Source: Corallium rubrum
Taxonomy: Eukaryota > Cnidaria > Anthozoa > Scleralcyonacea > Coralliidae
DNA length: 64,000 bases
Assembly: GCA_964035015.1 (NCBI GenBank)
Contig: OZ036008.1
Coordinates: 1,933,376 to 1,997,375 of the forward strand
Reading direction: 5' to 3'
Both the position numbers and the translations under genes were made by a program. Within the stretch, counting starts at the first letter, position 1. Each line of letters starts with the position of its first letter. The notes beneath the pieces are model-generated. The model saw nothing but the letters and a program-made list of their open reading frames with translations. It was not told the DNA's origin and made no database searches. Positions 4,212 to 63,399 of the stretch are shown piece by piece.

Positions 4212-4282
4212 CGGAAAGTGACAGCTAAATATATTTATTAAAAATCATCCACTATAACGCATACATCCCTATAGCTTCACTC

Positions 4283-4399: not shown

Positions 4400-4433
4400 C
4401 TATAAACGGTCATTATCCGTATCCATGTAAACA

Positions 4434-4544: not shown

Positions 4545-4567
4545 CAACATTAGTGTCACGTGACACT

Positions 4568-5437: not shown

Positions 5438-6312
<875 letters not shown>

Positions 6313-8380: not shown

Positions 8381-8635
8381 TTTCATACACAGTAGGTCCA
8401 GGGTTTTCCTCAACATCATTTGCCATTCTCAGTAATAATGCCACATACACAATATAGCATATTACAAGTACACTCCAGTATAAATAGAACCAATATTGAT
8501 GTCAAATTCCAAAACTTACTTTCAGGATGAGAGGCATTTTTGATTTTTACAAAATTATTGTGCATACCAATACGAGCTCTGTATTGCTCAATTGTTACTC
8601 CCATTTTTAAAAGACTGTTTTATTGTAGATAGTGG
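8380..8635 (-). mobile_element. Element copy related to 33795-34010, with exon-like fragment
   Basis: This stretch aligns by eye with 33795-34010: both have GGTCC-AG-TTTTCCTCAA, then CAGTAA-AT, then ACACAATATAGCAT, then TTTTTACAAAATTATT. They are diverged copies of one element. On the minus strand 8516-8604 begins ATG and encodes MGVTIEQYRARIGMHNNFVK followed by IKNAS, then meets a candidate splice donor. It may be the first exon of the transposon ORF at 7495-7962. Confidence 0.4.
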
Positions 8636-8639
8636 ATCG

Positions 8640-9509: not shown

Positions 9510-9892
9510 GTACGGGCACAGAATAGTAAGAAAACCAGAAGTCCGACTCGAGTGAAAACTTGTCCCCATTCCTTCAATGCGCAGGCGCGATATTTTACGC
9601 CATCCGACGCAATGTCCTACGCCATCCTGGCAAGTTCCCCCAGCAGTTTTAACCTTCTTTTGAAGGTCCAAACTGCCGGGGGAACTTGCCAGAATTGCGT
9701 AGGATTGAATAGAATAGAATAGAATAGAATAAAACTTTATTTTACGAGGGAAAAGACGTATTAACCGTAAAGGTTATCTACATCCTACATTGCGTAGGAT
9801 GACAACGAATCAAATGCGCGAGGACAGAAACTTCAAAGGTTCCGACGCGAATCGGACTTCTGGTTGTATTACTATTCTGTGGTACGGGTACA
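9510..9892. mobile_element. MITE with nested hairpin and retroposon-like tail
   Basis: Inverted ends share CAGAATAGTA and ACCAGAAGTCCGA (left 9516-9553, right about 9851-9882). Inside are a second palindrome (9628-9691, TGGCAAGTTCCCCC against its complement) and a (GAATA)n run at 9705-9730 followed by AAAACTTTATTTTACGAGGG. That last part resembles the 3' tail of a SINE or LINE on the minus strand. A further half-copy of the end lies near 47236-47270. Confidence 0.6.
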
Positions 9893-17040: not shown

Positions 17041-18069
17041 AATAGGTACGCAGCGCGTACATGTGTCGACTGGTTGAGTGATCATGAGTTCAGTGAATGA
17101 AATGAAAAAAGTTACAATGACTTGTTACCGGAATCCCGAAGCTGTATGTTCAAATTTCAAATACGCGATGCGTATATCTTACTATTGTGGCACACTCGAT
17201 TAAACTGATTGCCTTAGTGATTTCAGGTGAAGGGAAATCATTAACTCAATTTGACATAGGTGGACTGGTGCACATTCATTTTACAAACTATTGTATACGT
17301 CATACACCTTCACACCCATCAGTGGTATAGCCCATAGTTAACCGGATGCATTGATAAATCTTTGCACCATCTGGGGGTGATGACATTAATAGGGGTGCAC
17401 CGGAACCAATATTTTAAGATCCGGCCGGAACCGGATCTGACCGGAACCGGATCTGACCGGAACTGAAAAAGAAATCCGGCCGGAACCGGGTTTGTTAAGC
17501 CATATATGGTTATATGCTATTTTATCAAGAGCGGGGGGGGGGGGGTAAGTTGGAATAAAAATATTGAATAATATTAACGTAATTGTGTAAAACGTCTTCA
17601 TAAAATGCTCATGTATTGGCATTAATGATTTAATGGCATACAAATATATCCTTGTATAGTGTATTATCTACACGGGAGCAAAGAGCCTGGGAACGAGGTT
17701 GTAACTAGAGTATATCAGCATATATAAAATCACTTGTTTTCATTTTATTTTGTATGTTTCACACCAATTTTCAACCTTTCATTTGCATGGCTAGTATGAA
17801 ATGATTAAATTATCAGTATGTGCTTGTTATATGAAGTACTTTCCCTAACCCACCATTCCGAACCGCTGACCGTCTTTTGATGTGTGATATTATTGAATAA
17901 AATCTGTGAAAAAATAAACGCTGTTATAAAAAAGACAAGAGTTATTTTTTTTTCAATGATTGCAGATTTTTGATCAGGTTAGTAAAGTCATACAATTATT
18001 TTGTCGATGTTTTTATCTTTGAGTCAGTTAACTAAAGAATAACTATATTAACCAATACTTTAATTACGT

Positions 18070-43460: not shown

Positions 43461-43756
43461 TGCCCAATATTACTTATAATATACCCATTTCTCTCCTGGC
43501 ATTACCACCTTGTTATATACAGAACTCGCGATCAAGCTCTCGGCAACGCCCTCCGTGGCTCAGTGGTCAGAGCATTGCACTAGAATCGCAAGCAAGGTCG
43601 TGGGTTCAATTCCTGCCGGAAGGCCTGTGCAGTTGCATTTTTCGGTCCCGGTTTGGTCTTAAAATGTATATATTCTACACTCGAATTTTCCTTCACCCAA
43701 AATCCTTAGAACATGCTATGTAATCGAGTGAAATGCCAAATATTACTTATAATATA
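43461..43756 (+). mobile_element. tRNA-derived SINE with 23-bp target-site duplication
   Basis: 43549-43623 folds as a tRNA: acceptor CCCTCCG with CGGAAGG (one mismatch), D stem GCTC/GAGC, T arm GTGGG/CCTGC, A box TGGCTCAGTGG at 43556 and B box GGTTCAATTCC at 43603. The loop CTAGAAT would give anticodon AGA. The 250-bp body 43484-43733 is flanked by a 23-bp direct repeat with one mismatch (43461-43483, 43734-43756). Transcription by RNA polymerase III from the internal promoter and LINE-mediated insertion follow from this. Confidence 0.8.
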
Positions 43757-44650: not shown

Positions 44651-45268
44651 TCATTTATATTGAAGAAACTCAGCGATACAATCCTCACGCCGCAGCAGAC
44701 GCAACGAAGAATGCCGATACATTTGCCGAGTTGATCCAATGCTTGGATGATAGAACTAGAAGTCTTACGCTTGTTATTCGAGATGCGACAAACGACGGAA
44801 GAAAAGCCTTGGCTATTTTACGCGAACATTATCGATCAAAGGGAAAGCCAAGAATAATAACCCTCTCTACGCAACTGACGTCGCTAAAAATGGCTGCCGA
44901 CGAAAATATTAGACAGCCGCTACTTCGCTCAAAACGGCAGGAGAGACAATCAGTGACAGTTTATTAATAGCAATGATTCTAAAAGGACTACCTCAAGCCC
45001 GCTTCAAGCCGTTCTCAACAGTAGTGACCCAAAAGGACAAAGCATTGTCTTTTGGCGAATTCAAGGTTGCACTGAGAAGTTTCGAAGAAACAGAAAAACT
45101 ATCTACTGAAGCCAGCAAAGAGGACAGTGTGATGAAAGTTATCCTTTGTTATGGATGTGGAAAGCCCGGACACAAATTGGCCGAATGTCGTGTCAAGAGA
45201 AGCGATGGTGTGATATATGCAAGAGCAACACTCATCAGACTGAAAAATGCCGCAAGAAGAACCACGTA

Positions 45269-46235
45269 GCAAAATCCGGCGTAAGTGAGACTAAAAATGA
45301 CAATATGCATGAAGTCAAACAATCTTTTGTATTTAAAGTTGGTATTAATGTAACTAGTAAACAAAATGTAAATGGGTTACTAGTAGATTGTGGGACAACC
45401 ACACATATTGTGCATGATCCCACTAAGTTCATTAGATTTGATAAAGAATTTAATCCCGAAAATCATTATATTTAACTAGCTGATGGCAGTAGGTCTAACA
45501 ATGTTGCTTTGAAGAGGGGTGATGCGTGTGTCCAACTCTGTGATGTTGATGGTAATGTTCATCAGGCAACTGTACGTACCCTCTTTGTATGTACTCTCTT
45601 ATATAGACAGAATATATTTTCTATTCAGGCTGCCACTAGCAAAGGTGCTGCTGTATGTTTTTCATCTGATGATGCTAAGCTTATTTACCCCAATGGCACT
45701 GAATTTAAAATTGAAAAGAGTGGTAAATTATACTATTTGAATAGAGTAGCTTCTTCTAGTATGGCTAAACAAAACAGCAAGACCAAATCCTTGAGAGACT
45801 GGCATGAGATTTTGGGCCACTGTAATTTGAAAGATGTTCTTGCTTTGGAAGGTGTTGTAGATGGGATGAAGGTGGTTGGTAAACGTGAGTTTGATTGTGA
45901 TGTCTGTGTTATGGGAAAAATGACTCAATCTAGGAGCAGAGAGCCAGATAGACGTGCTAGCAAAATTCTTCAGTTAGTACATTGTGATCTTGCAGGCCCC
46001 ATCGAGCCTGCAGCCAAAGATGGTTTTCGATATGCTATTTCATTCACTGATGATTTTTCAGGTATTATTATGATTTACTTCATAGTCGTCAGAAAAGTGA
46101 CACTATAAGTGCAACTGAACAATTCTTAGCAGACTCAGCACCATATGGTAAAGTTAAATGTCTGAGGAGTGACAATGGTACTGAATTCACCTCAGAATCT
46201 TTTCAAAATCTTCTCTTAAAGCACAGCATAAAACA
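45269..46235 (+). pseudogene. copia protease-integrase relic
   Basis: Protease: LLVDCGTTTHIVHD, with Cys in place of the usual Ser in D-S-G. After a stop near 45473, the frame 45509-46108 has the integrase zinc region (WHEILGHCNLKDV...CDVCVMGK), the first catalytic Asp in VHCDLAGP and FTDDFSG. A shifted frame then gives KCLRSDNGTEFTSESF, carrying the second Asp; the catalytic Glu and everything downstream are deleted at 46235. Confidence 0.75.
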
Positions 46236-46271
46236 TGTTGTGTATCCATCGTTATGACAAATAATCTAACA
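46236..46271 (+). repeat. 3' LTR remnant of the copia element
   Basis: 36 bp identical to 44183-44218 and joined directly to integrase coding sequence. Confidence 0.85.
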
Positions 46272-46439
46272 GTTTTTAATTAAACAATGATTTAGCTTTG
46301 GTTCATATTTTATTATAATTAGCTCAGTACTCAGCAAGAACAAAAATGGGAGGGGGATGTGGTTTTCGTCCCCGAGCCCGGGGAGGGTGTTAATCTGCAT
46401 GGACATGCGTGAAGTCCACTTGCACACGAATTACGCGCG

Positions 46440-46740
46440 CGCGAGTTGAAAAATAGGTACGCAATGCGTACATGTGACTACCGCTGTTAAGTACAGAACG
46501 AGATATAGACTTGAAATGCATGAAAATGTGTGAAAAGCACAGACACACACAAAAATTTGTGGATAAATCCTAGCTAGAGAACCACTCTAGTGGTACCGGT
46601 GCTTTGAACAACCCAATTTAACTTTTATCCACTGAACAGCACTATCAGATACATAACTATTCAGTGGATACAATTTTATATTAGGTTGTTCAAAGCATGA
46701 CCAGTGCTGTTCTTTAGCTAGAACTTATCAACTAGATAAG
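46440..46740. mobile_element. GTACGC-type repeat and a TTGAACAACC foldback
   Basis: AATAGGTACGCAATGCGTAC at 46452 is the dispersed repeat word. 46590-46710 is a foldback with arms GGTGCTTTGAACAACCCAAT and TTAGGTTGTTCAAAGC, plus inner ATCCACTGAACAG against CTATTCAGTGGAT. Confidence 0.6.
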
Positions 46741-46784
46741 CTATCTTGGCTTTGTACAACTCACCCCAGATCATATACATGCAC

Positions 46785-46897
46785 ATTATTTTTGTGGAAA
46801 CACCGTAAAATATTTATTTGCTAAGCTTTCAGCCTGTTGACTCAGGCCGAAACTGTTAGCAAATAAATAATTTTCATGGTGTTTCCACAAAAATAAT
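46785..46897. mobile_element. Foldback MITE, 113 bp
   Basis: Arms ATTATTTTTGTGGAAACACC and the complement ending at 46897; inner parts pair TATTTATTTGCTAA with TTAGCAAATAAATA. Confidence 0.75.
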
Positions 46898-48292
46898 CTA
46901 TATACATTATCGCCTTGAAAACTTTCAAAAAATTAATCACTCCAGATAATCAACATTGTGTTCCAAAACAACATTTTACCTGCCATAAATATGCTGTCAG
47001 TGCCATTCAAGCGTAATGCATATCACGAATATTTTGTGATTCTGTTAGTATTTTAAATAAGACAGTACAACAATACTCAATATTGTAGTTTCAACAGATA
47101 TATTTCTTCATTTCAAGGCTTTCAACATATTCAAGGTTTTAAGTTTCCCAGCAGTTCGCAGTAGCTTTTCAAAAAGTACATTTGAGTGACACTTAGACAC
47201 CAGATTATGGAATATTTTAGTACTTTCACAAGAGTCAGACTTCTGGTGTATCTACTATTCTGTGGTCAGACCGCTGTATAGCAGCTCTGGTGAACGCTCT
47301 GGTGTGCACTGAAACTTAATTTGGTTTCTTAATTTCATTATACAACACGTTGCCAAAGTGATCTTATATTAGATTTTGCAAGCGTTTGAATGGCTTCCTT
47401 GTCTGTTTCAGAATGACAGAAAAACCAACGTATTAAAATTAATAGCTCGGAAACTATACGTATAATAGAACTAAAAACAAACCAGTACAATCAGATTGCC
47501 ATGAAAAAGTAACAGGCAAGGTTTCAGTCAAAAATATAAAAAAACAGCGGAGAAAATTGAAAATTTCATATCAATAATTAAAAGAGTACTGTATGTGTAG
47601 CCAACATTCTATCAAGAAGATTAGGTAGAAAAGTTAGTTATTATTGTATTGTTTGTGAAATAAAGGATTCAGACAAGCGGAATTCTGGAATGATTCTACT
47701 CACGGCAAATAATTATGCTGTTATATAACGTCAAAGTCAAAAACACCGAAAACCACTGAAAAACACCACAGAAAACAAATTAGCGAATCTATTTAAGGTA
47801 GTATAAACAGACTGTTTTCATGAAGCAAAAGGCAAATTTTCATAAAAAATTAGTAAGATAACAGTGGGCAAAAAAATATGGAAAACATATATACCACGCC
47901 GATCCTAAAAGATTAGTGGCGTCTTCAGCAAAACACAGCAAAAATCCTCATCGTACTGAAATTGATATCTCTCAAGATGAAACAAAATATGAAAAACTTA
48001 AGCTTACCTTAGTGACTTATTAAGCCGTGTTTACACGACCAATATTTAAGCACGCTTAAGTTTTGCCGTGTAAACATGGCTTTCGTACGGAAGTTTTATA
48101 CCTTCGAGTTTATTCTTGCTGTCCTCTTTTAGTTTCCATTTTACTCACAATCAACAGTTTTCCCTCAGTTTTTCTTTCTGTTCTTTCGAAAGAGATGTGC
48201 TAACTGATCCGATTAAACCCCATGAAGCAGTGGCGTTGCCAGACCTGGGAGAGTGTGTGTGTGTGTGTGTGTGTGTGTGGGGGGGGGGGGGG
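46898..48292. other. No gene; small MITE and a (GT)n-G run
   Basis: A 60-bp inverted element at 48023-48082 (AAGCCGTGTTTACACG against CGTGTAAACATGGCTT) and (GT)n followed by a G run at 48255-48292. At 47236-47275 is a half-copy of the 9510 MITE end. Nothing coding is supportable. Confidence 0.4.
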
Positions 48293-49143
48293 ACAAAATG
48301 ATGACGTCATCGTTATATGACGCCATCGGTATATGACGTCATGATTGTTGGTACTTCATGTTAACTCTATATAATAGTTATTATACAGATAATTGTGATT
48401 TTAAAATATATACTAGAAATTACTACCGCAAGTGAAATGCTGCCTCGAATGCGACAAGAAGCCTGATTAGTTTCCTGATGTTTCACAAAATTCCTAAAAT
48501 AAGCCCTTTAATTACAGACAGAATATCTAATACACGTTTATTTTTAATTATAAGATTTAAAATTATACATTACTATGAAACCTATCTCTTTATATCATAA
48601 TTGGCAAGGGTTTTAACAGGATAAACACTACATGTATTACATGGTATACAAATAATAGATCACTATGCGTCTTGCTGTGGCAAAACAGTCAACGAAATTC
48701 CAAGTGTTTCATGTTATGACAAATGTATAGCTGTAAAATGATACAGCAATATACCAACTTCAGATTATTTTGGAGAAGTTGTATAACTAAAATAATTATA
48801 TTCCAGGCTGTGCATGCTAGCATTTTAGAGTTGCGCATTGTTTATAATCTCTGATTCTTATAAGTTCTTGATACAAATACACCACTTTCAAGGCAATTTA
48901 CTATTATAGTCATTGTCTCATAGTCATTGATGATGATCCATTACTTTCAAGATGTCTCACTCTGCATAATTATTGTGTTGCAATCCATCATTGAAACATA
49001 GTTTATTTTCTAAGAGAACATGTAATATTGTATTTACTTTACAGAAAACACGAGTATCCAGGAGTATGACTGACTAATACTTCTGTTGTAAGTGAACCAT
49101 ACTTTTCTTTTTTTGAGTGAAATGATAATCCATTTCTTCTCAG
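48293..49143. other. No gene recognised
   Basis: AT-rich noncoding sequence; it starts with repeated ATGACGTCAT words (48301-48345). Confidence 0.35.
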
Positions 49144-49348
49144 TATTTCAATGTACAGTCACTGCATCACATGTAGTTTACTTCCGGATACTGCTAAGTT
49201 TTTGTGCGGACAACTCATCACTGAAAGCAAATGTTATATTCTGAAATCAGATGTACTGTATGGAAATCGAATAGCATCATGTAGACATAGAGCAGTTCCA
49301 AAGGTGCACGAAGAGATGGTTAAACAGAGCGAAGGTTTCAGGCTTTGA
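49144..49348 (+). CDS. Unidentified candidate terminal exon
   Basis: Follows CATTTCTTCTCAG and is open to TGA 49346-49348; the first ATG is 49151. It encodes MYSHCITCSLLPDTAKFLCG and then a Lys/Arg-rich segment ending SEGFRL. Six cysteines in 65 residues. No family recognised and no matching upstream exon found. Confidence 0.2.
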
Positions 49349-51310
49349 AAGCATTTACAAAAATCGCATGCCACCATGCCACTGTCTATTTGTAAGAATT
49401 TGTAATACTCACCGTCTAAACTCCGTGCTAAAAAACGTCAATCTCGTTTGTCCCACTGATCTCAAGTAATAGGCTCCTTTAATATACTGGATAGAGCATC
49501 TATTGTTTCGCGCTCCAAATTCTACGTCACAAAACGTCATAAAAATGTCTACGTCATCCGACAGAAATCCTTGAATTCGATCTGATCGAGTTTCTGTGTC
49601 GACCAGAGGAGGTTGGTCACGGTCCGAAAAGGATCATGGGTGGACATTTTGACCAATGAGAAACCGATCGGCGAAGGAGCGATTGGAGGCAATTTTGATC
49701 AAGGAGAAGACAAGACCTTCAAGAAAGTGATATTTTCGACAAATTTTTAGAAATTTTAATCAACTACATGTAACAACAGAAATAGGAGGTAAGACAAGTT
49801 ATTAATATTTTTGGTTAAAATCTAGCTCGAGATCGGCTTAATCTAATGTATAATGTGAGGTGATAGAATGGGTCTACGAAATGGCGCCATTTACCTCGCG
49901 CGCTTGTAGTACTTCACCTTCTGATAGTTTACATGAATTGGTTAGTGGTTCACAGTGGTTTTTTAAGTCATATGTACAGAATAAAGGTTGCTGATTATGA
50001 TTATGATATCGAACCCCATTGAACCTCTTCTGGTTTTCGAGATATACGTCGCTGAAGACATGCTAAATTTTCTAGCAAGTTGTTGTCCTAATATGTTCAA
50101 AGTCTTGAATAGGTCTTGTGCGTTTTGGTATAATTTGTCATATACTGATACGTAGAGTGTTCTTATAGTTTCTTCGTATTCATAATATTAGTATGATTAT
50201 TAAAATTAGTAATGTGTAGGTTTGTAGTTTATTGTCCAGCTCATTGCTGTTACTTGTTATTGTAAATAATATATATAGTATGTTGATATTGCTAATTTGT
50301 TGTTGGGACCTTGAGCCCTTTCAACTGAATCAGTGGTGTAGGAAGCAAGTTGATGTGGATACTGAGGGGACTTTCAAAAGGGCATGCACTGTTGCAAATA
50401 TAGGGGGCTTTATGACCAAGTGGGGCCAGCAACATATGTGCCAGTGTTCCCCTGGTTTGCACACCTCGGAACTAATACAATACTATGGTCAATAATTCCA
50501 TCTCTATTTTGTTTTACAGGAGGTGAAAATATACAGAAGGCAATCTTGGAATAACTTACTTAATATGTAATCCAAAGTTTTGCATGTCAACTACAATGCA
50601 TGATAATTGTGGACATAACTAATAAAATTTTAACAAATAGAAGTATTTCACATGGCATTATATGATATTATCCAAATGCTGGGTCTCAAAGCTTAATGCT
50701 TATTTAAAGCTCCAAATGGCTAAGGGAATATTCATTAACTTAGAATGCTATTGCATTATACTATACACTTATAAACTGGTGATGAGGAGAACAGTTTTGT
50801 TTTCACAAGAGTCTTGATGTTTCCTGAGATGATGGGCAACATTTGATTTGTCTAATCCCACATGACCATAAATAAACCAAAAGCAGTCTGAGTTACAACT
50901 AGGAAAAGTCTCTAATAAGGCAGACAACCTTGGGGACAATTTCATCTGTCTTAGAGAGACACCCTCTAAGAGACCTCAACCACATTGACAATATTCTAAA
51001 CAACAATTATATACAAGCAGCCAAGATTTGACCATTTTATACACCAATCAAACTTTTGGTCAACCCAAGGGAGGGTGGGTGTACAATGATTGACAAAGAT
51101 TGACCACAAACTGGTGCTCCACAGCGGGGTGTGTATGTCAAATGCCCCCTGGGTATGCCCGACCTCTCCCTGGTTGGGCAAAGCATTGATTGGTGCATTA
51201 GAGAGGTGCCAATTAATAGCACGTTCACTGTAATTGAATACCTGTATCAATGCCAGTGGCACTTTAGAAGTAACTAAGATCAATAATGAGACTAGCTTTT
51301 GAAACCCATG
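49349..51310. other. No gene supported; dispersed repeat pieces
   Basis: 49455-49510 shares CACTGATCTCAAGTAATA and ACTGGATAGAGCATCTATTG with the minus strand of 57045-57105. 49595-49645 (GACCAGAGGAGGTTGGTCAC) is inverted at 52195-52255. 51100-51205 resembles the CCCCAGG/GGTGCATTAG repeat of 28300. Confidence 0.4.
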
Positions 51311-51316
51311 CATATT

Positions 51317-51413
51317 TTATATATATATATATATCATTGGCTTCAAATTGGGAAGAGGCAGCACGCAGGCTATATTGAGACAAAACATTTTATTTTCATT
51401 CAAGTTACTTATT

Positions 51414-51468
<55 letters not shown>

Positions 51469-51491
51469 AAATATATATATATATTATATAA

Positions 51492-51545
<54 letters not shown>
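51317..51545. repeat. Compound (AT)n microsatellites
   Basis: TA runs at 51317-51334, 51416-51460 and 51470-51545. Confidence 0.95.
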
Positions 51546-51550
<5 letters not shown>

Positions 51551-52440
51551 ATCAAGTAACAACACATAAAATTTCTAGTTATTTGTCATCTGTGAAGGCT
51601 TGAAGTGGTGCAATATTTCTATGTTGAACATTTGAGCAATTCAATATTCCAAAATCACCCTTTATACAAACAAAAAAAAACCCAAATTAATTGTATATAT
51701 GCAGTCTACCTATTTTAAAAACATCAAAGTTAATACCAAATACATAAGTTAATTTCATACAGCCAGTGCATACGATTTTAAAACAGTATTAATATAAACA
51801 ACAACGTTGATTTCTTACCTTACGCTTTTCTCCATTTGCAACGACTTACGACGCGTTCCAATCTAAAATTTTCAGCACAATCAAATCCTTCTTTGTTGTA
51901 AACATCTCATTCGTTTCATTTGTATCAATAAAATGCCTCCAATGGAACTTGAGTAGGTCTTGAAAATTATCTTGAATGCCCACACGCCATTGTCGCGAAT
52001 ATACACCAAATAAAGCACAATCTGATATTTAATTGTCTATGATCATCACGAATTGTTTTCCTATTTTGCTGACGATCAGCTTTATAAATTCTGGATCAAC
52101 TGTGACGAGTTTTCAAAAGATTTTACGCATCGAGTCCACCCAGAGGAGATCACTCCTCGTCTGTGGTCAGATGCAAATGAATCGATTTTGGCGTTAGTAA
52201 CCATGATCCTTGTCGGACCGTGACCAACCTCCTCTTCCTCCTCTGTGTGTCGACTATACATACGTCGGCAAAAGGTCTGGGCACGAGTAACAGGCCACCC
52301 AAGTACCCAAGCCAAGATTAGTGTACTGCCTCGCTATACGCTCGGCAGCAATGATCGTTTCGGGTGCATTAACCTTAACCCCCAAACATTCGTAAACTTA
52401 ACCCAAATTGTTGTGTGGACCTAACACATAGTAGAAACGC
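51546..52440. other. No gene recognised
   Basis: Noncoding; includes the inverted partner (52195-52255) of 49595-49645. Confidence 0.35.
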
Positions 52441-52612
52441 TCTGGGGGGGGGGGTCCGGGGTAGGCCCCCCGGGAAAATTTTGAAATTTAGAGTCTCGGA
52501 AATGCCATTTCCTACATTCTGAGATGTGAATTTTTACATTCTGAGGGGTGATTTTTAAATTCTTGTACCGGTGTACCGGCGTCTCAAACCGCCTGGATAC
52601 GGCCCTGAGTGA
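52441..52612 (-). mobile_element. Diverged copy of the CAGGG-ended hAT MITE
   Basis: On the minus strand it starts CAGGGCCGTATCCAGG and shares AGGAAATGGCATTTC, ATTTCAAAATTTTCCCGGGG and CCCGGACCCCCC with the complete element at 56132-56494. The far end lacks a clear terminus. Confidence 0.6.
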
Positions 52613-52630
52613 ACTAACGCAAGAAGAGAT

Positions 52631-54163
52631 TAGCCTGCGAGCAGGCTCTCTCAACGTGGCGCTGTGAAATGAGAGCCTGCAACAATCCTAGGGGTAAATC
52701 GATAACGCCCACTTAATTAATATGCAAATGTCGCGAATCAAACCAATCACATTCTTCCGGAAGTCTGTGTAAAAACCCTCATTCAAAGCACAATCCGAAG
52801 ATGTAAATTTCACACTATCAACTATACTCCTTACTGGAAACTCAAAATCTGTTTATAAGAAAGCCAGAAGCAATGTAACGCATCTAACGATTATCGGGTA
52901 TGTAGTTAGGAGTTCAAAATATTCAACTTTAGACTAAAAACATGTAGCGAAACAGTTTAGCGATGCATGCTATAAACGTCTCAGTATGAATCAAATAGAA
53001 TGTACTTTAAAGATTGGGTCATGACAACCTCAGATCTTAGCTTTATAAGTTTGCTATCTCTAATTTGTGGAAGACGAACATAACTTTGATTTTGTACAGA
53101 AACATTGACAAATCGTTATTCGAGATTAGGTGTTTGTGATTCACTGAACGGCATTCACTGATCCAGGTGATGGCGACAGAATATCGTCAAGATAGCGCTT
53201 CTCGTGTAAATGTGCAAGTTGCAAGAGGTCAAAACGAAGACTTTCACGAACTGCTGTATACGAACGAACATGAAATGAGTTACGCTCCTTCGTAGCTAGG
53301 GAAGGTGCGAAAACCTAACTTAAATGAACATATAGACACTTTCAGACGCTTTCAAAGATAGCCGACATATAGAACCAGGTGCGTATCATTATAGTCTAAA
53401 CGGCGACATATTAATAGTTCAGAAATTCAAGTGTTTTCATCAAATTTAGCAAGACTTTCGTTCTGGCTGTTGAGTTAAAAAACTGGGTCATTCTGAACTG
53501 AATAACTGGTAGCCTCGAGCCAGTCGGCTTCGATAATATAAATAATACTTGACACACTGGCGCACAAATTGGATAATATATCAATTATAAAGTTCCAGAC
53601 AATAGCAGACATTTATTAATGGCAGAAAGAAACCTCGTTTGAAAAAGAGCTTACCTCATTCAGCAATAATCTTTATTACACGAATTAAGTGAATGTGTAA
53701 TCTCCTCTTATTAAGTATGTTTTGACGTTTTGAACGGCACATTATTATTGAGTCAAGGCGACACACGGGGCTCGATTTCTGATGAAAGTGATGACACTTG
53801 CTTCTGTATTATAAAGCCAGACACAGACAGACAGAGAGATTCGTGGAGTTTCAACCCGGATCTACTTTGCTATTTCTTTTCTTTTGTTCCACAGCGATGT
53901 GTTTTAAAAATATTAAGAGCTACGGCGTCTTTAATAGCCGTCTTGTTGAAATATGTCTCACTCCATGCATTGTTGAAGTCCGTAAACAATAACTTTAAAA
54001 ATAATTTATTCTGCATTAATTTTGTTCGACCAATAGAAACTCGCGGCCGCCAAATTTGCCCAATAGAAATACGCGGCCTCTGACGGCCGCGAGTGACGAA
54101 AAAACATCATGCTTTGTTGCAGGCCCACATTGCACAGCAACAGGAGGGCCTGCCCGCAGGCTA
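52631..54163. mobile_element. 1.5-kb transposon with TAGCCTGCG ends and 9-bp TSD
   Basis: Ends TAGCCTGCGAGCAGGCTCTC and the complement GAGGGCCTGCCCGCAGGCTA. AGAAGAGAT flanks both sides (52622-52630, 54164-54172). Subterminal GAGAGCCTGCAACAATCC at 52671 repeats the arm. Interior mostly noncoding; a 9-bp duplication is compatible with MULE-type or, allowing one shared base, 8-bp-TSD families. Confidence 0.75.
53170..53295 (+). CDS. Short ORF inside the TAGCCTGCG element
   Basis: ATGGCGACAG in good start context opens 41 codons (MATEYRQDSASRVNVQVARG at the start) to TAG 53293-53295. Polar, Gln/Asn/Glu-rich. It may be the beginning of a decayed transposon protein or chance. Confidence 0.2.
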   Translation: MATEYRQDSASRVNVQVARGQNEDFHELLYTNEHEMSYAPS

Positions 54164-56131
54164 AGAAGAGATATGAATCGAAAAACACATTCACACACTT
54201 GCAAACTATTTGTCCAGCTAGCGGTGTGAGCTGAGCACTTGGAATCATTACATACACCCACCCCCCAACGTTTCTCACCGGATTTGGAAGAATCTCAAAA
54301 TTGGTCTTGAAGTTAACTGGGGGGGGGGGGGGGGACGCCCCCCCCAGTCCCCCCTCTAGCGACGCAAGAAGTCATAACTGTGTCTGTTTAAACTAATAAA
54401 CTAATACCCGCTGTTGATACTGTTCACATGAATTCGAACTTGAATAGAACGGTTTGTTCAGTTCTATGTGGTTATAATTCAGTGAAACACGGTTGAGTCT
54501 GACTTGTGCTCATTGTCTTCCAGTTAATATTTTAACTTTCACTACAAGGTTTGGTTATTGACTAATAGTATATGAATTCTTGGGCATGATAGAATGTGCT
54601 TGACATGTCTTGGATAGAATGTGCTTGTCTTGTCTTGTAGTATATTTGCTGTCTAATGTGATATTAAAGGTAACAAACGATACTTAGTTTTGTCGAATTT
54701 GGGCTAATAATGTTCAACCAGTTCAGATGGTTTTATTATGGTTACAGTACAGTATGTATTTTGCCCAAGCCCTTGTCCTTTGATAGTATTTTCAATTCGA
54801 CTATCGATTCCACTTTTGTTTAAGCAACACATTCATTTTGTCTACAGTATGTCTCAAACAAAATATGTACATACTGGATAACATTTTGAGTTAGTGGTAA
54901 ATTACTGAGAGCCGAGTCTTTTAGCCAAATACAGCCCGAGAGGCCTGTGGCCCCAAGGGGTTTATTTGGATAAAAGCTGGGGTTCGAGGTAATTAACTGA
55001 CTTATTTAATAGATGAGGTTTTTGAAAAAACATGTAATTACTATATATTGCCCTGTTGACCAGGGCAATATCTATATACAGTGCCTTGATTTTTTAAATA
55101 TTGGTTCTCTTGGGATATATCGTAGATACAGCTCTAGAAAGAACAAAGAAAACCAACTCAACTATTAAATGATTATAGCATCTTAATGGCCATTAAGAAG
55201 TTACACCCAAGTTTGATTCCTACTCGATCAATGCAGTTTTACTGTACATTTAGCAGATTAAAATTTTATCTAGTTTGCTGAAAGCAAGAAAAGTCTTTCC
55301 AGTTACATGCATCCAGGATTACTGTAGATCTAAGGATGTTACTCTGCAATCTGGGTTTAACTCCTACTCTTCACTTATCAGATTAAAATTTCACCTTGGA
55401 TATACACCACCAGAGATTTCTTCTGGCTGGTTTCCTCCTGTAGTAACACTGACCAATGAGGGATGACTCTTGCACTAGTATAGTATTTTAAACATTTTGG
55501 ACAGTCCTTTGCGGCTTTGCCGTTGTGCTGAATTAGAGAAAACTTAAATTAATTTCAATAAAATTGTTTGTACTATCCAGAGCGGCTTACACTAGCTTTA
55601 ATTCAACTAAAATCTTATGAACATCTGTATGCATTGTTATGATCACTCATCTCAAAAAAAAATTAATGACTGATCTTGTCTTCTGCCAAGATCAGCTAGT
55701 GATACTATGATTTGTGCATAAAAAGTCGTGTGGATCTAATAAGGAAAAGACATATAGATGGGATGAAACCTAAAAAGTTGTATGATGCAAGATATTGAGG
55801 TATGATAAATGTAGTAAAGATTGAAATTTTTCAAAAATATCTTGAAATAAAAACACTTCTGTAGTAAATAATAGTTTGGAATCATCCTTCTCTTTGTTTA
55901 TTTTAGAAAAAAGCTCATGACTTATTATCTGTTTCAAATATAAGTATACACAAAGTAGATTATAACCAATAAATAATTATTTTTGTATGTAAATCAGAGC
56001 TGGTCAAACCATACCCCTTTATTATAATTTTATTTCAATCTCAGATTATTCTACTATTTCAAATACCAGACAATTTGACTTTGTCAAATAGAAAACCCTT
56101 GGCAAGTCTCTCCAGCAAGCCTAACTACAAA
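54164..56131. other. No gene recognised; G/C homopolymers and one hairpin
   Basis: A run of G followed by C at 54317-54350 and a hairpin ATATTGCCCTG/CAGGGCAATAT at 55043-55072. The 63-codon frame at 55275 lacks splice context or family. Confidence 0.35.
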
Positions 56132-56502
56132 CAGGGACGTAGCCAGCGGAGAAGCCGGGGGAGCCGCGGCTCCCCCCGTTTAGATATAAAACAGCAGACA
56201 TGTAACTACAAAACTGATGCAATATAAATTATGTCAGGAAGTAAACTGTAAACAGTGTATTCAATCTATACTGAGTGTATGCATTTTGAGTATCTATGTG
56301 ACGTTTGCGTGTTTTGAGTATTTTATATGACGTTTTTTAACCTTCAGGGTCTGTAAAATCTTCCTCCAAAAGCCAGGAAATGGCATTTCAACGACTCTCG
56401 ATTTCAAAATTTCCCGGGGGAGCATGCCCCCGGACTCCCCTGAAATTTTTTCTGATTACGGCTCCCCCCTTTCAAAATCCTGGCTACGTCCCTGACTACA
56501 AA
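56124..56502. mobile_element. hAT-type MITE, 363 bp, with 8-bp TSD ACTACAAA
   Basis: Ends CAGGGACGTAGCCAG and CTGGCTACGTCCCTG are perfect inverted repeats (56132, 56494). ACTACAAA is duplicated at 56124-56131 and 56495-56502. CAGGG ends with an 8-bp duplication are the hAT pattern. Confidence 0.88.
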
Positions 56503-56527
56503 CTTCCAATAAACGAGGTATCATCGG

Positions 56528-56803
56528 TTTCAAATTATGAAGCTTAACCATGTAATAAAACCATCCCACAAGCGGGATGTTAAACTTGAACACATAAAGG
56601 TAAAAACTCTATAGGGGTGTTGTGGTCGGGGTATGAGAGGTGGGACATTTTTCCGGGGGGTTGTGGTTAGGTTTAGGGTTTCCGGGGGGTGTGATTTGGT
56701 TTAGGGTTTCCGGGGGGGTATGGGGGTGAGGTTTCGTTTAAAAAGGTTGTCTAATCAGATGGTGGTTTTAGTAGTTGGTTAAGCTTCATAATTTGAAGGA
56801 AAT
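56528..56803. mobile_element. Foldback with G-rich TTTAGGGTTTCCGGGG repeats
   Basis: Arms TTTCAAATTATGAAGCTTAA and TTAAGCTTCATAATTTGAA enclose two copies of GGTTTAGGGTTTCCGGGGGG (56665-56730). Confidence 0.65.
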
Positions 56804-57314
56804 GATAGCTCAATAAACATCTTGTATAAAACCCTCAGATCGTCTGATCCAAGATACGTTGAAAAAGACGGATATAGAAATGGTAATAATTTTACTTTGT
56901 CTTAAAGTCACTGTCAAACTGCTAAAGTGAATACAAGATGTTATTTGTTCCTTACCTCTGTTCCTTAAAAACTGTAGCCTAGGTCCCACCGGATATGGCC
57001 GCCGCGAGATTTTCAGCCTCACTTCCGACTTCAATTTTGCCACGGACGAACCAATAGATGCTCTATCCAGTACAATAAGTATATTATTTGAGATCAGTGT
57101 ATTTAACATGCTCTGTGCGAAATTGTGAAGCGATGTTTCGAAGCGAATTTAGAGCCCTTCTACTGAAATCGTCGGAGTCGGAGTTTCTTACCTTGTGGCT
57201 GCTGGTGGTCAGGAGAGCAGCGAGTTCAAAACTGTTCAATCAATATCTGTCCTCTGAAGTGGGTTAAACAACAAATCTTAGTAATTATGAATACAGAAAG
57301 ATCAAAAGTAAGCA

Positions 57315-57320
57315 TTTATT
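57315..57320 (-). terminator. Candidate polyadenylation signal
   Basis: TTTATT on the plus strand is AATAAA on the minus strand, about 380 nt after the stop codon of the microexon gene. Confidence 0.35.
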
Positions 57321-57696
57321 TCAAATTTTGCCTTAAAAAAATACCGTTTCGAATGTTTTAAGATTAAGGGAGTGATTACATGGACCGGGCTGGACCAGTA
57401 AGCCGGGGTGAGTTTTAAATGGACGTGGGATATATACTGTGGTTTTGGTTCATAATAATCTGATTGCTGTGGCGCGGGTCGTGGCAGAAAGTTCTAGCAG
57501 CAGGCTGTATAGTAGATCTGGCGGTGCTAGCCTTGTTGATCGACGAGACGCATGGCCAATGGGTATAGCGCAATTGTGGTATGGCATCGGAATGATCCGT
57601 TGGCTCGGAATTTCGGAACCTTTGAGGCCCTTTGGAGGCCTCTGGAGTCTGGACGTTGGGAGACCCTGGTTCAATGAACCGTATGAACCACTGGGC

Positions 57697-57828
57697 CTAG
57701 GCTACTGCTGGCCTTCCGGCAGCGTCCATTTCATCATAATCACCACTAGAAGCGGTGTGATAAGAATCAGAAGATGACAAGCTCAAGGAATTAGTCGCCT
57801 TGGTTGACTGGTTTGACGATGGCGTAGA
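57697..57828 (-). CDS. Microexon gene, terminal exon (43 residues)
   Basis: After CTTTTTGTAG the exon begins with a diverged repeat, STPSSNQSTK, then ATNSLSLSSSDSYHTASS and GDYDEMDAAGRPAVA before TAG. Confidence 0.75.
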   Translation of the reverse strand, partial: STPSSNQSTKATNSLSLSSSDSYHTASSGDYDEMDAAGRPAVA

Positions 57829-60800
57829 CTACAAAAAGATAATTTTTAGTTTTAAATTAAGTGGCTCAAAATAGTTCCCAAAGGGGAAGACTCATCAAAA
57901 ATCTAATCAAAAATCTTACCTCAGATGATTGGTTTGGCAATAATGGAGCCTACAGACAGAAGAATTGTTTTTGTTTTAACTTAAGGGTGTGCGTACAAAT
58001 TCCGTTGTTAGGCTACAGTTACTAAGGGTAATTGATTTTTGCAATTAATCTATTTCAAAAATGAACTGCAAATGTATGAAATAATTACGATCTTGAATGC
58101 ATGGTGTATGTAAACAACAGTTCGTCGGTAGGTAACGTTATATGATGACGTCACACTGACGTCATCAAAAATCTACTTACCTCAGATGATTGGTTTGGCA
58201 ATAATGGAGCCTACAAATAAAGAATTGTTTTAACTTAAGGGTGTGTGGACAAAAAGGGTAATTGATTTTAGCAGTTAATCTGTTTCAAAAATGAACTGCA
58301 AATGTACGAAATAAATACGATCTTGAATGCATGGAGTATGTAAACAACAGTTCGTCAGTAGGTGACGCTATATGGTGACGTCACACTGACATCATCAAAA
58401 ATCTACTTACCTCAGATGATTGGTTTGGCAATAATGGAGCCTACATAAAAAGAATTGTTTTACTTAAGGGTGTGTGGACAAAAAGGGTAATTGATTGTAG
58501 CAGTTAATCTGTTTCAAAAATGAACTGCAAATGTACGAAATAAATACGATCTTGTATGCATGGAATATGTAAACAACAGTTCGTCGGTAGGTGACGTTAT
58601 ATGGTGACGTCACACTGACGTCATCAAAAATCTACTTACCCCAGATGAGTGGTTTGGCAATAATGGAACCTACAAAAAAAGAATTGTTTTAACTTAAGGG
58701 TGTGTGGACAAAAAGGGTAATTGATTGTAGCAGTTAATCTATTTCAAAACTGAACTGCAAATGTACAAAATAAATACGATCTTGTATGCATGGAGTATGT
58801 AAACAACAGTTCGTCGGTAGGTGACGTTATATGATGACGTCACACTGATGTCATCAAAAATTTACTTACCTCAGATGATTGGTTTGGCAATAATGGAGTC
58901 TACAAATAAAGAATTGTTTTGACATAAGGGTGTGTGGACAAAAAGGGTAATTGATTTTAGCAGTTAATCTATTTCAAAAATGAACTGCAAATGTAAAAAG
59001 TAATTACGATCTTGAATGTATGGAGTATATAAACAACAGTTCGTTGGAAGGTGACGTAATGTGATGACATCACACTGACATCATCAAACACCTACTTATT
59101 ACCTCAGGTGATGCCAACCTCGTTCCCAGGGCCTTTTTTAAATTAGGATGGCGGGAAACGGTCCTGTGGACTCTGTATTTTTATTGGTTGATTGCTTTTC
59201 TTAAACATTCCTCAGGAAACCTAATTATGTATAGTTTTGGGTCAGTTATAATCAATTATACAATACTCTGGTTGCTATGCGCGTTTTCATTGGTTGTTGG
59301 CCATGATCTATTAGAGGACAGACACACGGATCACGCACGTCAGATCATGTCAGCTGACTTGCTTTTTTCTTTCTTCATGCCCCAAAATCCGGCAAGAAGT
59401 ATTGTGCAATTTTTATATTGTAAAAAAACAAATAGATTCCATTTTTTTGTTGTCTGTTCAGTTATAGATGCGCAGAAGACGTAACAACGTGGTAAGAACA
59501 TCAGTGACCCACTCGGCTGCGTCTCGTGGGCCACTTTTTTGTTCTTACCACGTTGTGACGTCATTTGTGCATCTATAACTGAACAGACAACGGAAAAATG
59601 GCCATGAATCTATTTGTTAAATAGCTTCAACAAAACCGCCAACGGGACCAATTCTCCCACGGGACCGCCATTACTCGGAATGATATTGCATACTAAATTA
59701 AGTTGCTAATTTATTACACCCAGTATTTCTGGGTGCTGTGACCAGCCGATGCCAGAACCTTTTCCCGCCCTCCTAATTTCAAGAAGGCCCTCGGAACGAG
59801 GTTGTGTTTTAACTGAAGGGTGTGCAGACAAATTCCGTTGCCAGACTACAGTTGCTAAGGATAATTGATTTTAGCAGTTAATCTATTTCAAAAATGAACT
59901 GCAAATGTAAGAAATAATTACGATCTTGAATGTATGGACTGTGTAAACAACAGCTCGTTGGTAGGTGACGTCATCAAAAATCTACTTACCTCATGATCAG
60001 ATGATTGGTTTGGCAATAATGGAGACTACAAAAGAGAATTGCTTTTGTTTTAACTTAAGGGTGTGCGGAAAAATTCCGTTGCTAGGTTACAGTTGCTAAG
60101 GGAAAAATTGATGTTAATTGATTTTTGCAGTTAATCTATTTTCTAAATGAACTGGAAAATGTAAAAAACAACGTCATCAAAAACTAACTTACCTCAGATG
60201 ATTGGTTTGACGATGAAGGAGGCTACAAAAAGAGAATTGTTTTTGTTTTAACTTAAGGATGTGCGGACAAATCCCATTGCTAGGCTACAGTTGCTAAGGG
60301 TGATTAATTTTAGCAGTTAATCTATTTTCTAAATGAAATGCAAAATGTGAAAAATAACGTCATCAAAAACTTACTTACCTCGGATGATTGGTTTGACGAT
60401 GAAGGAGACTACAAAAAGAGAATTGTTTTTGGGTTAACTCTTTCCTGTTTGAATCGATCTTTGGTATTTTATTCTGGGAAGCCCTCGGACAGGAATGAGT
60501 TAAGGGTGTGCGGACAAATTCAATTGCTAGGCTACAGTTGCTATGAGTAATTGATTTCAGCGGTTCATCTATTTCAAAAATGAACCGCAAAATGTAAAAA
60601 ATAACCAAGATGTTGAATGTATGGAATATATACACAACACTTTGTCGGTGGATGACGTAATACGACATATGACGTCACACTGACGTCATCAAAACCCTAC
60701 TTACCTCGGCTGGTTGGTTTGACGATGGAGGAGACTACAGATAAAGAGAATTGTTTCTGTTTTAACTTAAGCGGACAAATTTCGTTGCTAGGTTACAGTT

Positions 60801-63399
60801 GCTAAGGGTGATTTAAGACAGTTAATCTATTTTCAAAATGAATTGCGAAATGTAAAAAATAACCAAGATATTGAGTGAATGAAATATACTGATAACAGTT
60901 TGTTGGTGGGTGACGTAATGTGATGGTATCACACTGACATCATCAAAAACTTACCTCGGATGGTTGGTCTGACGATGGCGGTGACTACAAAAAGAGTGAA
61001 TTGTTTTTGTTTTAACTTAAGGTGGCTCCACACAATTTCTTGAAAAATGGAAAATACAAGTTTGAGAGTCCAAAATACGTGATTAAAAAATTCGGAAAAA
61101 GAATAAAACTAAATGTTATGCATAGTTAAACAGTCTGACAATCAAAAATTGTTACCAAATAAATAGCAACAGTTGTTGCTATGGCAACAATGACTTTTCA
61201 AAATGCCAATTACCCTTCAAACTAATTTAATTCGGAAAAAAACTTTAGTGACCCCCAGTTGTGTTTTTTTCATTAAAACTTTTCTTAAAGTATGAGTAAT
61301 CAATAAGCCGATTTTAAAAAAATTCTGTAGAACGAAATTTTTTAAAAATTAGCAAACATGATTTTTCCGGAAAAAAAAAATTATTCGTTCCATTATTTTA
61401 AAATCAGCCAATTGATCACCCATACTTCAAGAAAAGTTTTAATGAAAAAAAAATTGGGGGTCACCAAAGTTTTTTCCGAATTAAATTAGTTTGAAGCTGG
61501 GGTAATTGGCTGCAGTCATTTTGAAACGTCATTGTTGCCATAGTAACAACTGTTGCTATTTAATTGGTAACAGTTTTTGATGGTCAGACTGTTTAAATAT
61601 GCATAACATTTAGTTTTATTCTTTTCCCGAATTGTTTAATCACGTGTTTTGGACTCTCAAACTTGTATTTTGCATTTTTCAAGAAACTGTATGGAGCCAC
61701 CTTAAGGGTGTGCGAACAAATTCCGTTGCTTGGCTATACAGTTGCTATAGTCCGCGTGTTTCAAAATTAAATAAACTGCAAATTGTAAGAAATAATCAAT
61801 ATACGAATGTATGGAATGTATACTGGTGGCCAAAATTATTGATCCACCTATACTTCTGCAAGTCTTCTTGTAATGGTTTTAGAATTTAATAGAGTTCTAT
61901 TAGAACTGTAATATTTTATTTGCACTCTTATATGTCAAAGCATAGATAATGGAAGGGGGACTGGATAGGAAACTTACGAAACCGGAAACGGTGTTTGCAC
62001 AACTTGCTATGGTAATTATACACTGATAAGGGGCTAATGCACCTAACGGAAACACCGCTGCCATACGTTTGCGCATGCGTGAATTCGCTGAGTAAACATT
62101 GCAAGAGAAGTGGGAACTAGCCATGGTGACAACAAGCAGACAGTGAAGACTAAGTAAGTCTCGACTATTCATTTGTGTTTTAAAAAAAGGGTAAAGAAAA
62201 TTACGAAGGGGTAAATTCAGAATAATGTTACAATATTGTCAAAGAAGCCATGCACAAATTACCTACCTTATCTTTTTGGTAGAATGCTTATAATTTTAAC
62301 TTTTGTGTCGGACTCTCGGACCAGTCCAAATATTCCAGTGTTTTCCCACTCTTTTTTCGAGGACGAGCTCGGACGTCGCACATGCGCAAAACGTTTAGCA
62401 GCGGTGTTCCTAAGGGGTGGTCCCACTGTAAAGTTCAGCAGTGTCGGGCTTTAGCCATGTGCCACATGGCTAAAACCAGACACTGCTGAACTAAAGTGAT
62501 ATTACACTATTGTTTAATTTCAGCAATAGCTGATCCTGGCCATGTGGGACCACCCGTTAGGTGCATAAGTGGTGCAAACATCGTTTCCGGTTTCGTAACA
62601 TCATTTTAAGTTTCCTATCCAGTTCCCCTTCCATTATCTATGGTCAAAGTGTATAAAAACAACAATTCTAATTTCTACTCTATTTTAGTAATTTTTGTGA
62701 TTATTAAAACTGAAAGCAGTCTCCTTGGTATCCTCGTAGGCACAGCGAAAGGAGACTCTTGGGGTGAGACAAACCATTTTGATCTTGCTTCACAAGTTTT
62801 CGGTGCGCACGGCGTAGTGACTTATTTTATTACGGTGCTAAAACGTCGCAACGCATAATACCTAGATATTTTATGAATATCTCTAGTTCGAGGCCTGATA
62901 TTTTGAAATAATTTAGACAGCAAAACAGAAGGAAGTGATAGAGAAGTGTACATTTCATAGATGCACCTTCGTTTCTCATCGTACAAGACAATACTAAATA
63001 TATCAGCTAGTTTTCGAAATTCAACGCCGATATCCTTGCGTGATTACGGAAATTTGAAGTCGTATTCAGGTAACTGTTGCGCATGCTCAAACAAAATAAT
63101 ACATGATTTTGGCAGAGCCTCCTTTTGTTTGGCTCGAAACATGCAGGAAGCTCTGCTTCCAAGGTAGGGGCGGGCCTCTATTTTGGTGCAGGAACTGATT
63201 AACGCAGTAATTTAAAGACTTACGATTTGTCTTACGCAACAGTGATCTCTGCTTTCAATAAAACAGCTAACAATGAAAAGCACTATGAGACACAAAGCCA
63301 TAACTACGACTACGATTATGATGACCTCAACTTTCTTCCAAGCTGGCATATTTGACAGTGAATCTGTCATATTTGACAGTGAATCTGTCCAATCGTCAA
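57697..63399 (-). CDS. Microexon-repeat membrane protein gene, 3' part (12 exons, 5' end beyond the window)
   Basis: Minus-strand gene reconstructed from splice sites and phase. The transmembrane exon (63224-63399) ends phase 0. Ten microexons follow, each starting after TAG or CAG and ending at GTAAG, each an exact multiple of three. The terminal exon reaches TAG 57697-57699. The visible product is about 203 residues: an N-M-T sequon and tandem TDSLSNM before a hydrophobic helix, then Cys-Cys and basic residues, then decapeptides of the form [SATVP]-P-x-x-[PS]-[ND]-[QH]-[SP]-[SA]-[EG], then a Ser-rich tail with SGDYDEMD. YDEM fits the YxxM consensus for PI3-kinase SH2 domains. I infer a type I receptor-like protein with a repeat-built cytoplasmic stalk. 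The ectodomain is off-window and the family unknown. Confidence 0.7.
57920..57949 (-). CDS. Microexon 10, APLLPNQSSE
   Basis: 30 nt between GTCTGTAG and GTAAGATT; phase 0. Its donor lacks the downstream hairpin. Confidence 0.75.
58181..58210 (-). CDS. Microexon 9, APLLPNQSSE
   Basis: 30 nt between ATTTGTAG and GTAAGTAG; hairpin arms GATGACGTCA and TGACGTCATC follow the donor. Confidence 0.8.
58411..58440 (-). CDS. Microexon 8, APLLPNQSSE
   Basis: 30 nt between TATGTAG and GTAAGTAG; same coding sequence as microexons 9 and 10. Confidence 0.8.
58640..58669 (-). CDS. Microexon 7, VPLLPNHSSG
   Basis: 30 nt between TTTTGTAG and GTAAGTAG; diverged at four codons from microexon 8 but in frame. 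Confidence 0.75.
58870..58899 (-). CDS. Microexon 6, TPLLPNQSSE
   Basis: 30 nt between ATTTGTAG and GTAAGTAA. Confidence 0.8.
59103..59112 (-). pseudogene. Destroyed microexon
   Basis: Only the last 10 nt (ATCACCTGAG) and a weakened donor GTAATAAG survive; the rest of the exon and its acceptor are replaced by the transposon at 59115-59804. Confidence 0.7.
59115..59804. mobile_element. Transposon with AACCTCGTTCCCAGGGCC ends, nested foldback
   Basis: Ends CAACCTCGTTCCCAGGGCC and GGCCCTCGGAACGAGGTTG are inverted; subterminal GGCGGGAAA pairs with TTTCCCGCC. A foldback 59429-59628 (AACAAATAGATTCCATTTTT...CAGTTATAGATGC) is nested inside. Part of an end also occurs at 17686. Confidence 0.75.
59990..60025 (-). 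CDS. Microexon 5, SPLLPNQSSDHE (36 nt)
   Basis: Same unit with an in-frame 6-nt insertion near its end, between TTTTGTAG and GTAAGTAG. Confidence 0.75.
60193..60222 (-). CDS. Microexon 4, PPSSSNQSSE
   Basis: 30 nt between TTTTGTAG and GTAAGTTA. Confidence 0.75.
60379..60408 (-). CDS. Microexon 3, SPSSSNQSSE
   Basis: 30 nt between TTTTGTAG and GTAAGTAA. Confidence 0.8.
60434..60503 (-). mobile_element. TTAA hairpin-arm element inside a microexon intron
   Basis: CTCTTTCCTGTTTGAATCG...CCTCGGACAGGAATGAG (60438-60499) is bounded by TTAA at both sides. Sister introns have the uninterrupted TTTTAACTTAAGGGTGTG. The family core is partly deleted here. Confidence 0.75.
60705..60734 (-). CDS. Microexon 2, SPPSSNQPAE
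   Basis: 30 nt between ATCTGTAG and GTAAGTAG; hairpin arms with TGACGTCA follow. Confidence 0.75.
60955..60984 (-). CDS. Microexon 1, SPPSSDQPSE
   Basis: 30 nt between TTTTGTAG and GTAAGTTT; first of the array in transcript order. Confidence 0.75.
61017..61705. mobile_element. TTAA-targeting MITE, 681 bp, carrying two X-box motifs
   Basis: Element 61021-61701 with ends GGTGGCTCCACACAATTTCT and a near-complement (TGTATGGAGCCACC), flanked by TTAA (61017-61020, 61702-61705). Arms of about 300 nt are inverted copies. GTTGCTATGGCAAC (61175-61188) and GTTGCCATAGTAAC (61534-61547) match the RFX X-box consensus. Sister introns give the empty site. Confidence 0.85.
61934..62649. mobile_element. Transposon with CATAGATAATGG ends, TSD GTCAAAG
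   Basis: Element 61941-62642; ends CATAGATAATGGAAGGGG and CCCCTTCCATTATCTATG; GTCAAAG flanks both (61934-61940, 62643-62649). Inner arms pair GAAACCGGAAACGGTGTTTG and GCACCTAACGG. 62051-62343 matches 42068-42366. Confidence 0.8.
62414..62555. mobile_element. Nested MITE with GGGTGGTCCCAC ends
   Basis: GGGGTGGTCCCACTG and CATGTGGGACCACCC are inverted. Inside, TTCAGCAGTGTCGGGCTTTA pairs with TAAAACCAGACACTGCTGAA in a long hairpin. Confidence 0.7.
62650..63223. other. Intron sequence, no exon recognised
   Basis: Between the membrane exon and the array. A segment after TTCAAAATATCAG on the minus strand (near 62910) is stop-containing in phase 0, so I do not call it an exon. Confidence 0.4.
63224..63399 (-). 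CDS. Microexon gene, transmembrane exon
   Basis: 176 nt between TTGTTTACAG and GTAAGTCTTT. It starts with two bases completing an upstream codon, then 58 codons: DDWTDSLSNMTDSLSNM, PAWKK, hydrophobic VEVIIIVVVVMALCLIVLFI, VSCFIESRDHCCVRQI. An alternative in-frame donor (GTAAGA) lies 12 nt earlier. NMT is a potential glycosylation site before the helix; the Cys-Cys after it could be palmitoylated. Confidence 0.7.

Follow-up and report, generated by a model that had tools for sequence, protein, structure and literature searches.

A tandem array of putative in-frame microexons at the 3' end of a predicted membrane protein gene in Corallium rubrum

When analyzing a 64-kb window of the Corallium rubrum genome (contig OZ036008.1, hereafter C30, positions 1933376-1997375; the genome searched comprises 474 Mb in 312 contigs), we observed on the minus strand an array of ten putative microexons, all within positions 57697-60984 of the window, that encode variants of one decapeptide and whose splice signals are invariant while about half of the aligned intron columns have changed. 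Nine of the microexons are 30 nucleotides (nt) long and one is 36 nt; all ten are flanked by TGTAG on the 5' side and GTAAG on the 3' side, comprise whole codons only and are open in phase 0. The reading that we prefer, with a probability of about 0.62, is that the locus represents the 3' end of a gene for a single-pass membrane protein, the tail of which would have been lengthened by repeated duplication of an intron together with a 30-nt exon, and would serve as a cytoplasmic linker.

Organization of the array and its flanking exons

Numbered from the 5' end of the gene, microexons 1 to 4 encode SPPSSDQPSE (60955-60984), SPPSSNQPAE (60705-60734), SPSSSNQSSE (60379-60408) and PPSSSNQSSE (60193-60222); microexon 5, the one of 36 nt, carries an in-frame 6-nt insertion and encodes SPLLPNQSSDHE (59990-60025); microexons 6 and 7 encode TPLLPNQSSE (58870-58899) and VPLLPNHSSG (58640-58669), and microexons 8, 9 and 10 all encode APLLPNQSSE (58411-58440, 58181-58210 and 57920-57949, respectively). 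Serine accounts for 30% and proline for 21% of these ten- or twelve-residue repeats. The array is followed by a terminal coding exon on the same strand (57697-57828), again preceded by TGTAG, which consists of 43 codons and a TAG stop, contains the sequence YDEM and opens with a diverged repeat, STPSSNQSTK; the profile of the repeated unit also matches this region (57863-57783). A polyadenylation-type signal, AATAAA, is located on the minus strand at 57315-57320, about 377 nt 3' of the stop codon. The microexons make up 306 of the 602 nt of readable coding sequence, the 5' part of the gene falling outside the readable sequence.

An original prediction, made from the letters of this stretch, had described ten segments of 30-36 nt, bounded by an acceptor and GTAAG and with lengths that are multiples of three, each encoding in phase 0 one variant of the decapeptide, and a terminal exon that starts with a diverged copy. 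All of this is borne out, the acceptor side being always TGTAG and all ten translations being variants of the repeat. The predicted intron size of about 190-260 bp has to be corrected: the introns between the microexons span 156-296 nt, with the exception of intron 5, which is 1090 nt long, and the last intron measures 91 nt.

Some 2.25 kb 5' of microexon 1, also on the minus strand, there is a 164-nt exon (63236-63399) that encodes DDWTDSLSNMTDSLSNMPAWKKVEVIIIVVVVMALCLIVLFIVSCFIESRDHCC and includes a putative transmembrane segment (best 19-mer hydropathy 3.8). This exon is flanked by TTTACAG and GTAAG, has a single open frame, and has a phase 1 boundary at its 5' end and a phase 0 boundary at its 3' end. 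Phase is consistent from this exon through the microexons to the terminal exon, and it is from phase and position that we infer the splicing of the transmembrane exon to the array. The repeats and the terminal exon would then form a 145-residue tail with YDEM, which we take to be a YxxM-type motif, near its end. The intron preceding microexon 1 also contains two inverted-repeat elements, one at 61016-61706, with 190-nt arms that are 94% complementary and could form a long hairpin in a transcript, and another at 61941-62642 (arms 97% and 94% complementary).

Apparent splice-signal constraint and growth of the array

A search of both strands of the window for the strict motif TGTAG-N24..45-GTAAG yielded 14 rows: the ten microexons, an alternative donor reading for the one at 60408, and three occurrences outside the array (one on the plus and two on the minus strand), whose lengths are not multiples of three. 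In 30 trials with Markov sequences of the minus strand, the motif was present 1.4 times on average, with a maximum of three. As the copies arose by duplication, they do not amount to ten independent observations of a common form, and the informative part is the columns that stayed fixed during divergence. Changes were counted on a tree of the units built on the introns, using intron columns occupied by a letter in seven or more of the ten units. The introns show 124 changes, with 82 of 160 columns affected, and the exons 21 changes in 14 of 30 columns; the ten splice-signal columns (TGTAG and GTAAG) show none (P 0.0006 by random draws of ten intron columns). Among contiguous five-column windows, only 3 of 131 in the introns are invariant, all three in a single block, whereas both of the splice-signal windows are invariant.

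The mean identity of whole units falls from 88% between neighbors to 71% between opposite ends of the array (eleven units compared, including a wrecked one described below), and identity correlates with distance in order at r = -0.64, a value as strong as which was not reached in any of 5000 permutations. Since likeness drops with distance, the units multiplied by local duplication, which supports the earlier claim that the array grew by duplication of whole intron-microexon units. Units 6-9 are 93-96% alike, and Tandem Repeats Finder (TRF) reports plain tandem repeats at 58024-59098 (period 230) and 60510-61021 (period 258). The palindrome TGACGTCA, a site resembling the cAMP response element (CRE), occurs 15 times in the window, ten of these inside 57800-61000 (58146-60681). 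Nine of the ten belong to the repeated introns, and the other (59556) is part of an inverted-repeat element; this CRE-like site was multiplied along with the units.

The array has also decayed in places. The position of the element just mentioned is within the 1090-nt intron 5: it is a 690-bp inverted-repeat element, resembling a miniature inverted-repeat transposable element (MITE), on the minus strand at 59115-59804, with 52-nt arms (59115-59166 and 59753-59804) that are 88% complementary, and it entered and wrecked an eleventh unit. The remains of that unit, identified by unit alignment and by a profile match at 59112-58944, occupy 58944-59114 of the minus strand and comprise no acceptor, a truncated exon and a donor that now reads GTAATAAGT. 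The unit that lost its acceptor thus also has an altered donor, a natural control, but only one. The intron part of a further unit, at the 5' side of the array (61719-61822, minus strand), is recognized by a profile match (E 3.1e-8) and by unit alignment. With ten intact units, a wrecked one and an eroded one, the array once comprised, not counting the terminal exon, twelve units or more.

A second copy of the array is present on contig C31 (117 kb). When a 30-mer spanning the acceptor and the exon was sought with a tolerance of three mismatches, the matches were confined to the array (at least 3 places) and C31 (at least 3 places), and the reversed control of the same 30-mer had no matches in the genome. 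The alignment of C31 to 57001-62831 shows 12 differing columns; within 57697-60984 there are three, two in the inverted-repeat element of intron 5, and one an extra T, in a run of T, before the acceptor of microexon 5. No difference falls in an exon or a splice signal, and the ten microexons are carried unchanged on C31. The comparison of copy number that had been proposed for this array accordingly found the same ten microexons in the one other copy detected, which may not be independent. The associated claim that repeat number can change without a frameshift is upheld as far as the exons go, all ten being symmetrical so that any number of them could be skipped, and finds no support in the single comparison of copy number, that with C31, in which the number is the same. 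The contig looks like an alternative haplotype, judging from collinear pieces of more than 400 bases farther away that are about 92-98% alike (C31 positions 1-10000 and 50001-90000 compared). Over 54260-62831, C30 and C31 are 98.9-99.7% identical, versus 95-98% in the four longest pieces of 26.7-31.8 kb; this stretch of high identity could be a young shared segment, a conversion tract or an assembly effect, and, given its near-identity, the array of C31 may not be an independent allele.

Membrane topology and alternative explanations

Under the preferred reading, a single mRNA would contain both the transmembrane exon and the microexons, and the repeats would form a flexible, Ser/Pro-rich cytoplasmic linker between the membrane and the terminal piece with YDEM. 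What matters would be how long the linker is and not which letters it contains, because the residues drift neutrally while the splice signals stay. Since every unit is symmetrical, this length could shift in ten-residue steps, through unequal crossing-over or exon skipping, with the terminal piece left untouched. A more specific version of this interpretation, which we put forward tentatively and consider doubtful, is that the protein is an early-branching animal receptor whose cytoplasmic part acts as a ruler adjustable by splicing, each 30-nt microexon contributing one interchangeable decapeptide to the distance from the membrane to the terminal tyrosine motif. The animal would set the length of the tail, and perhaps the reach of signaling, in ten-residue steps by exon choice and unequal crossing-over, and the tail design of the BG genes would have been invented independently, with a disordered repeat instead of a coiled-coil one.

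Several observations weigh against the linker interpretation. The link between the transmembrane exon and the array spans 2.25 kb with two inverted-repeat elements and rests on phase, and positions 64001-69000, beginning just after the last base of the window, are 5000 N; exactly 5000 N are found also at C31:62501-67500, where the transmembrane exon of C31 would lie. Variation in repeat number was not seen in the one other copy, that on C31, which is possibly non-independent. By parsimony, the exon changes include 16 nonsynonymous and 5 synonymous ones, the neutral expectation (about 28% synonymous without selection), so that purifying selection on the residues was not found; nor was there, among exon changes at codon positions 1, 2 and 3 (11, 4 and 6, respectively), the excess at third positions that is the usual mark of a conserved protein. 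The absence of stops is weak evidence, given that all ten exons stayed free of stops in 25% of neutral simulations with 21 changes (P 0.25); since unit 10 has a short and poorly aligned intron, its branch was manually reduced from 0.44 to 0.10 for these simulations, whereas the unit tree kept 0.44. The absence of frameshifts is likewise weak by itself (P 0.31): nine distinct frame-breaking indels occur in the introns and none in the ten exons and their signals, where 1.2 are predicted, the sole exon indel being the in-frame one of 6 nt. Finally, the spliced 199-residue prediction has no homologous protein at E up to 10 among 226 candidates sharing words with it, and the topology is opposed by two lysines N-terminal of the membrane segment and by nine N-x-S sequons in the tail, as discussed below. 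With the residues apparently free of purifying selection, coding is inferred from the splice signals and the frame; in this array, the splice signals look selected and the peptide letters do not.

The same tests bear on two of the alternatives. Neutral drift of the residues (16 nonsynonymous to 5 synonymous changes), the killing of one unit and the erosion of another, and the failure to find a homologue would all be expected if the array once coded for a tail and is now relaxed, with the microexons largely skipped or optional and the repeats tolerated; this alternative, which fits either topology, so that our confidences in the different readings are not additive, appears unlikely, because invariance of the splice signals, with about half of the intron columns changed, is not expected if inclusion of the exons is immaterial. 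It is more improbable still that the segments are not exons at all but parts of a tandem DNA repeat with a unit of about 230 bp, open and splice-like by accident. TRF does call part of the array a plain tandem repeat, every copy would inherit the same motif, and the stop and frameshift tests do not by themselves exclude this possibility; however, the splice-signal columns are fixed and the other columns are not, and the phase matches both the transmembrane exon and a terminal exon that carries a stop and AATAAA.

A different alternative accepts the splicing of the array but places the repeats outside the cell, as the N-glycosylated stalk of a type II (or N-in) protein. By the positive-inside rule, the KK on the N-terminal flank of the membrane segment would favor the opposite orientation; the tail contains the nine sequons, and methionines in the transmembrane exon could start translation. 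However, the good acceptor and the phase 1 entry of this exon indicate that coding sequence probably exists upstream, and YDEM in the terminal exon would be idle outside the cell. Entry in phase 1 and exit in phase 0 is a usual pattern for the transmembrane exon in type I receptor genes, and the order of the exons, with the transmembrane exon 5' of the repeats, together with this change from phase 1 to phase 0, makes a cytoplasmic tail more likely. We therefore regard the extracellular stalk as rather unlikely, favoring a tail over a stalk by roughly three to one, and the word 'stalk' in the original prediction, in the sense of an extracellular rod, as doubtful, with the cytoplasmic tail likelier albeit unproven. 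The strong membrane segment speaks against a secreted product, as far as can be judged from the readable part of the protein, which does not include the N-terminus.

Searches for relatives of the predicted protein, which had also been suggested for this locus, produced none at E up to 10. Besides the spliced prediction, a 127-residue core placed in a longer protein (a query of 633 letters, of which the part scored comprised a single X and core residues 1-126) had no homologue at this threshold among 329 word-sharing candidates; both searches covered candidates of about 109 to 1108 residues. As a control, the hAT-type protein encoded at 18064-20034 of the window produced 293 matches among 7989 scored candidates in the same database; among the 120 matches listed, the first with an organism name was from Hydra vulgaris (45% identity), which hints at a cnidarian host and not at a schistosome. 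A whole-genome search for a paralog of the transmembrane exon returned only the exon itself as a credible match; one weak match (E 0.33, 40% identity, with an internal stop) was dropped as low-complexity sequence. The exact exon-donor pattern was absent from a viral and a genome contig collection, where an animal gene is not expected, and among the titles returned by a literature search none named this gene. When window coordinates 67001-107000 were scanned with Pfam in all three frames of the minus strand, no immunoglobulin (Ig) domain was revealed; the matches were a Mutator-like transposase and, below the cut-off, one to Cupin_3 within that transposase and one to RDM3_C. Downstream of the gene, at 46000-57690, two of the three minus-strand frames were scanned, with no Pfam match.

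Related tail designs and other features of the window

Genes in which a transmembrane exon is followed by many tandem microexons, each encoding one short repeat of the tail, are not without parallel. The chicken BG genes, of the butyrophilin family, are described as containing an Ig-V exon, a transmembrane exon and then many 21-nt exons that encode a cytoplasmic tail of heptad repeats; the sequences compared have 27 to 38 of these repeats, and introns can be read through (PMC5938342, PMC4046983). The coral locus, considered by its sequence, shares this arrangement but differs in that the BG exons are mostly of 21 nt with a split codon, and their heptads are thought to form a coiled coil, whereas the exons of the array are of 30 or 36 nt and phase 0, and its ten-residue repeats are rich in Ser, Pro, Asn and Gln. 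The array would work like a BG tail and yet lack the defining features of BG exons; no sequence relation to the BG genes is claimed here, and comparison with the Ig-V domain would need the ectodomain. If the intron following the transmembrane exon were retained (63236-63212), VRQIVSL would be added before a stop, giving a short-tailed form analogous to that produced by intron read-through in BG genes.

The micro-exon genes (MEGs) of schistosomes have been described as consisting of series of very short exons, usually with lengths divisible by three, that alternate with longer introns and give rise to splice variants (PMC10526429). MEG products are described as secreted proteins that carry a signal peptide, and 15 nt is the length of most MEG exons, whereas the array combines a membrane segment with a single repeated exon. 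In another Schistosoma mansoni gene, tandemly repeated exons reportedly encode 81-base repeats, to judge from the title of a 1988 article by Davis et al.; that system differs in having 81 nt per exon and in being a flatworm gene. The C-terminal region of periostin contains short repeats, and its exon count, length and splicing change rapidly between species (PMC2824660). There, the 39-nt repeats of fish lie within one long exon and the protein is a secreted matrix component, in contrast to the array. The tail design itself is already known; what sets the array apart is the length and phase of its exons and the character of its repeats.

If the exons are used, this one locus would keep the steps of the growth of a tail, namely, intact, element-disabled and eroded units and a terminal exon that starts with a copy, and, within a single gene, constraint on splicing could be told apart from constraint on residues. 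The locus would then also represent a second, apparently unrelated BG-type tail, raising the question of whether receptors have repeatedly evolved tails of variable length.

Elsewhere in the window, an open frame at 469-1068 matches the Pox_A32-type ATPase (E 1e-8) and is Polinton-like; three of the plus-strand open frames that follow it were scanned and had no Pfam match. The 656-codon frame at 18064-20034, the source of the control protein, matches zf-BED and has a relative with 93% identity in contig sequences; it is probably a recent hAT-type transposase. A GAG-pre-integrase match at 44913-46108, accompanied by gag and zinc-knuckle matches below the cut-offs and in different frames, points to the remains of a Copia-type element. 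At gathering score, Rfam yielded a single hit across the 64 kb, a tRNA match at 43549-43624 (43.6 bits).

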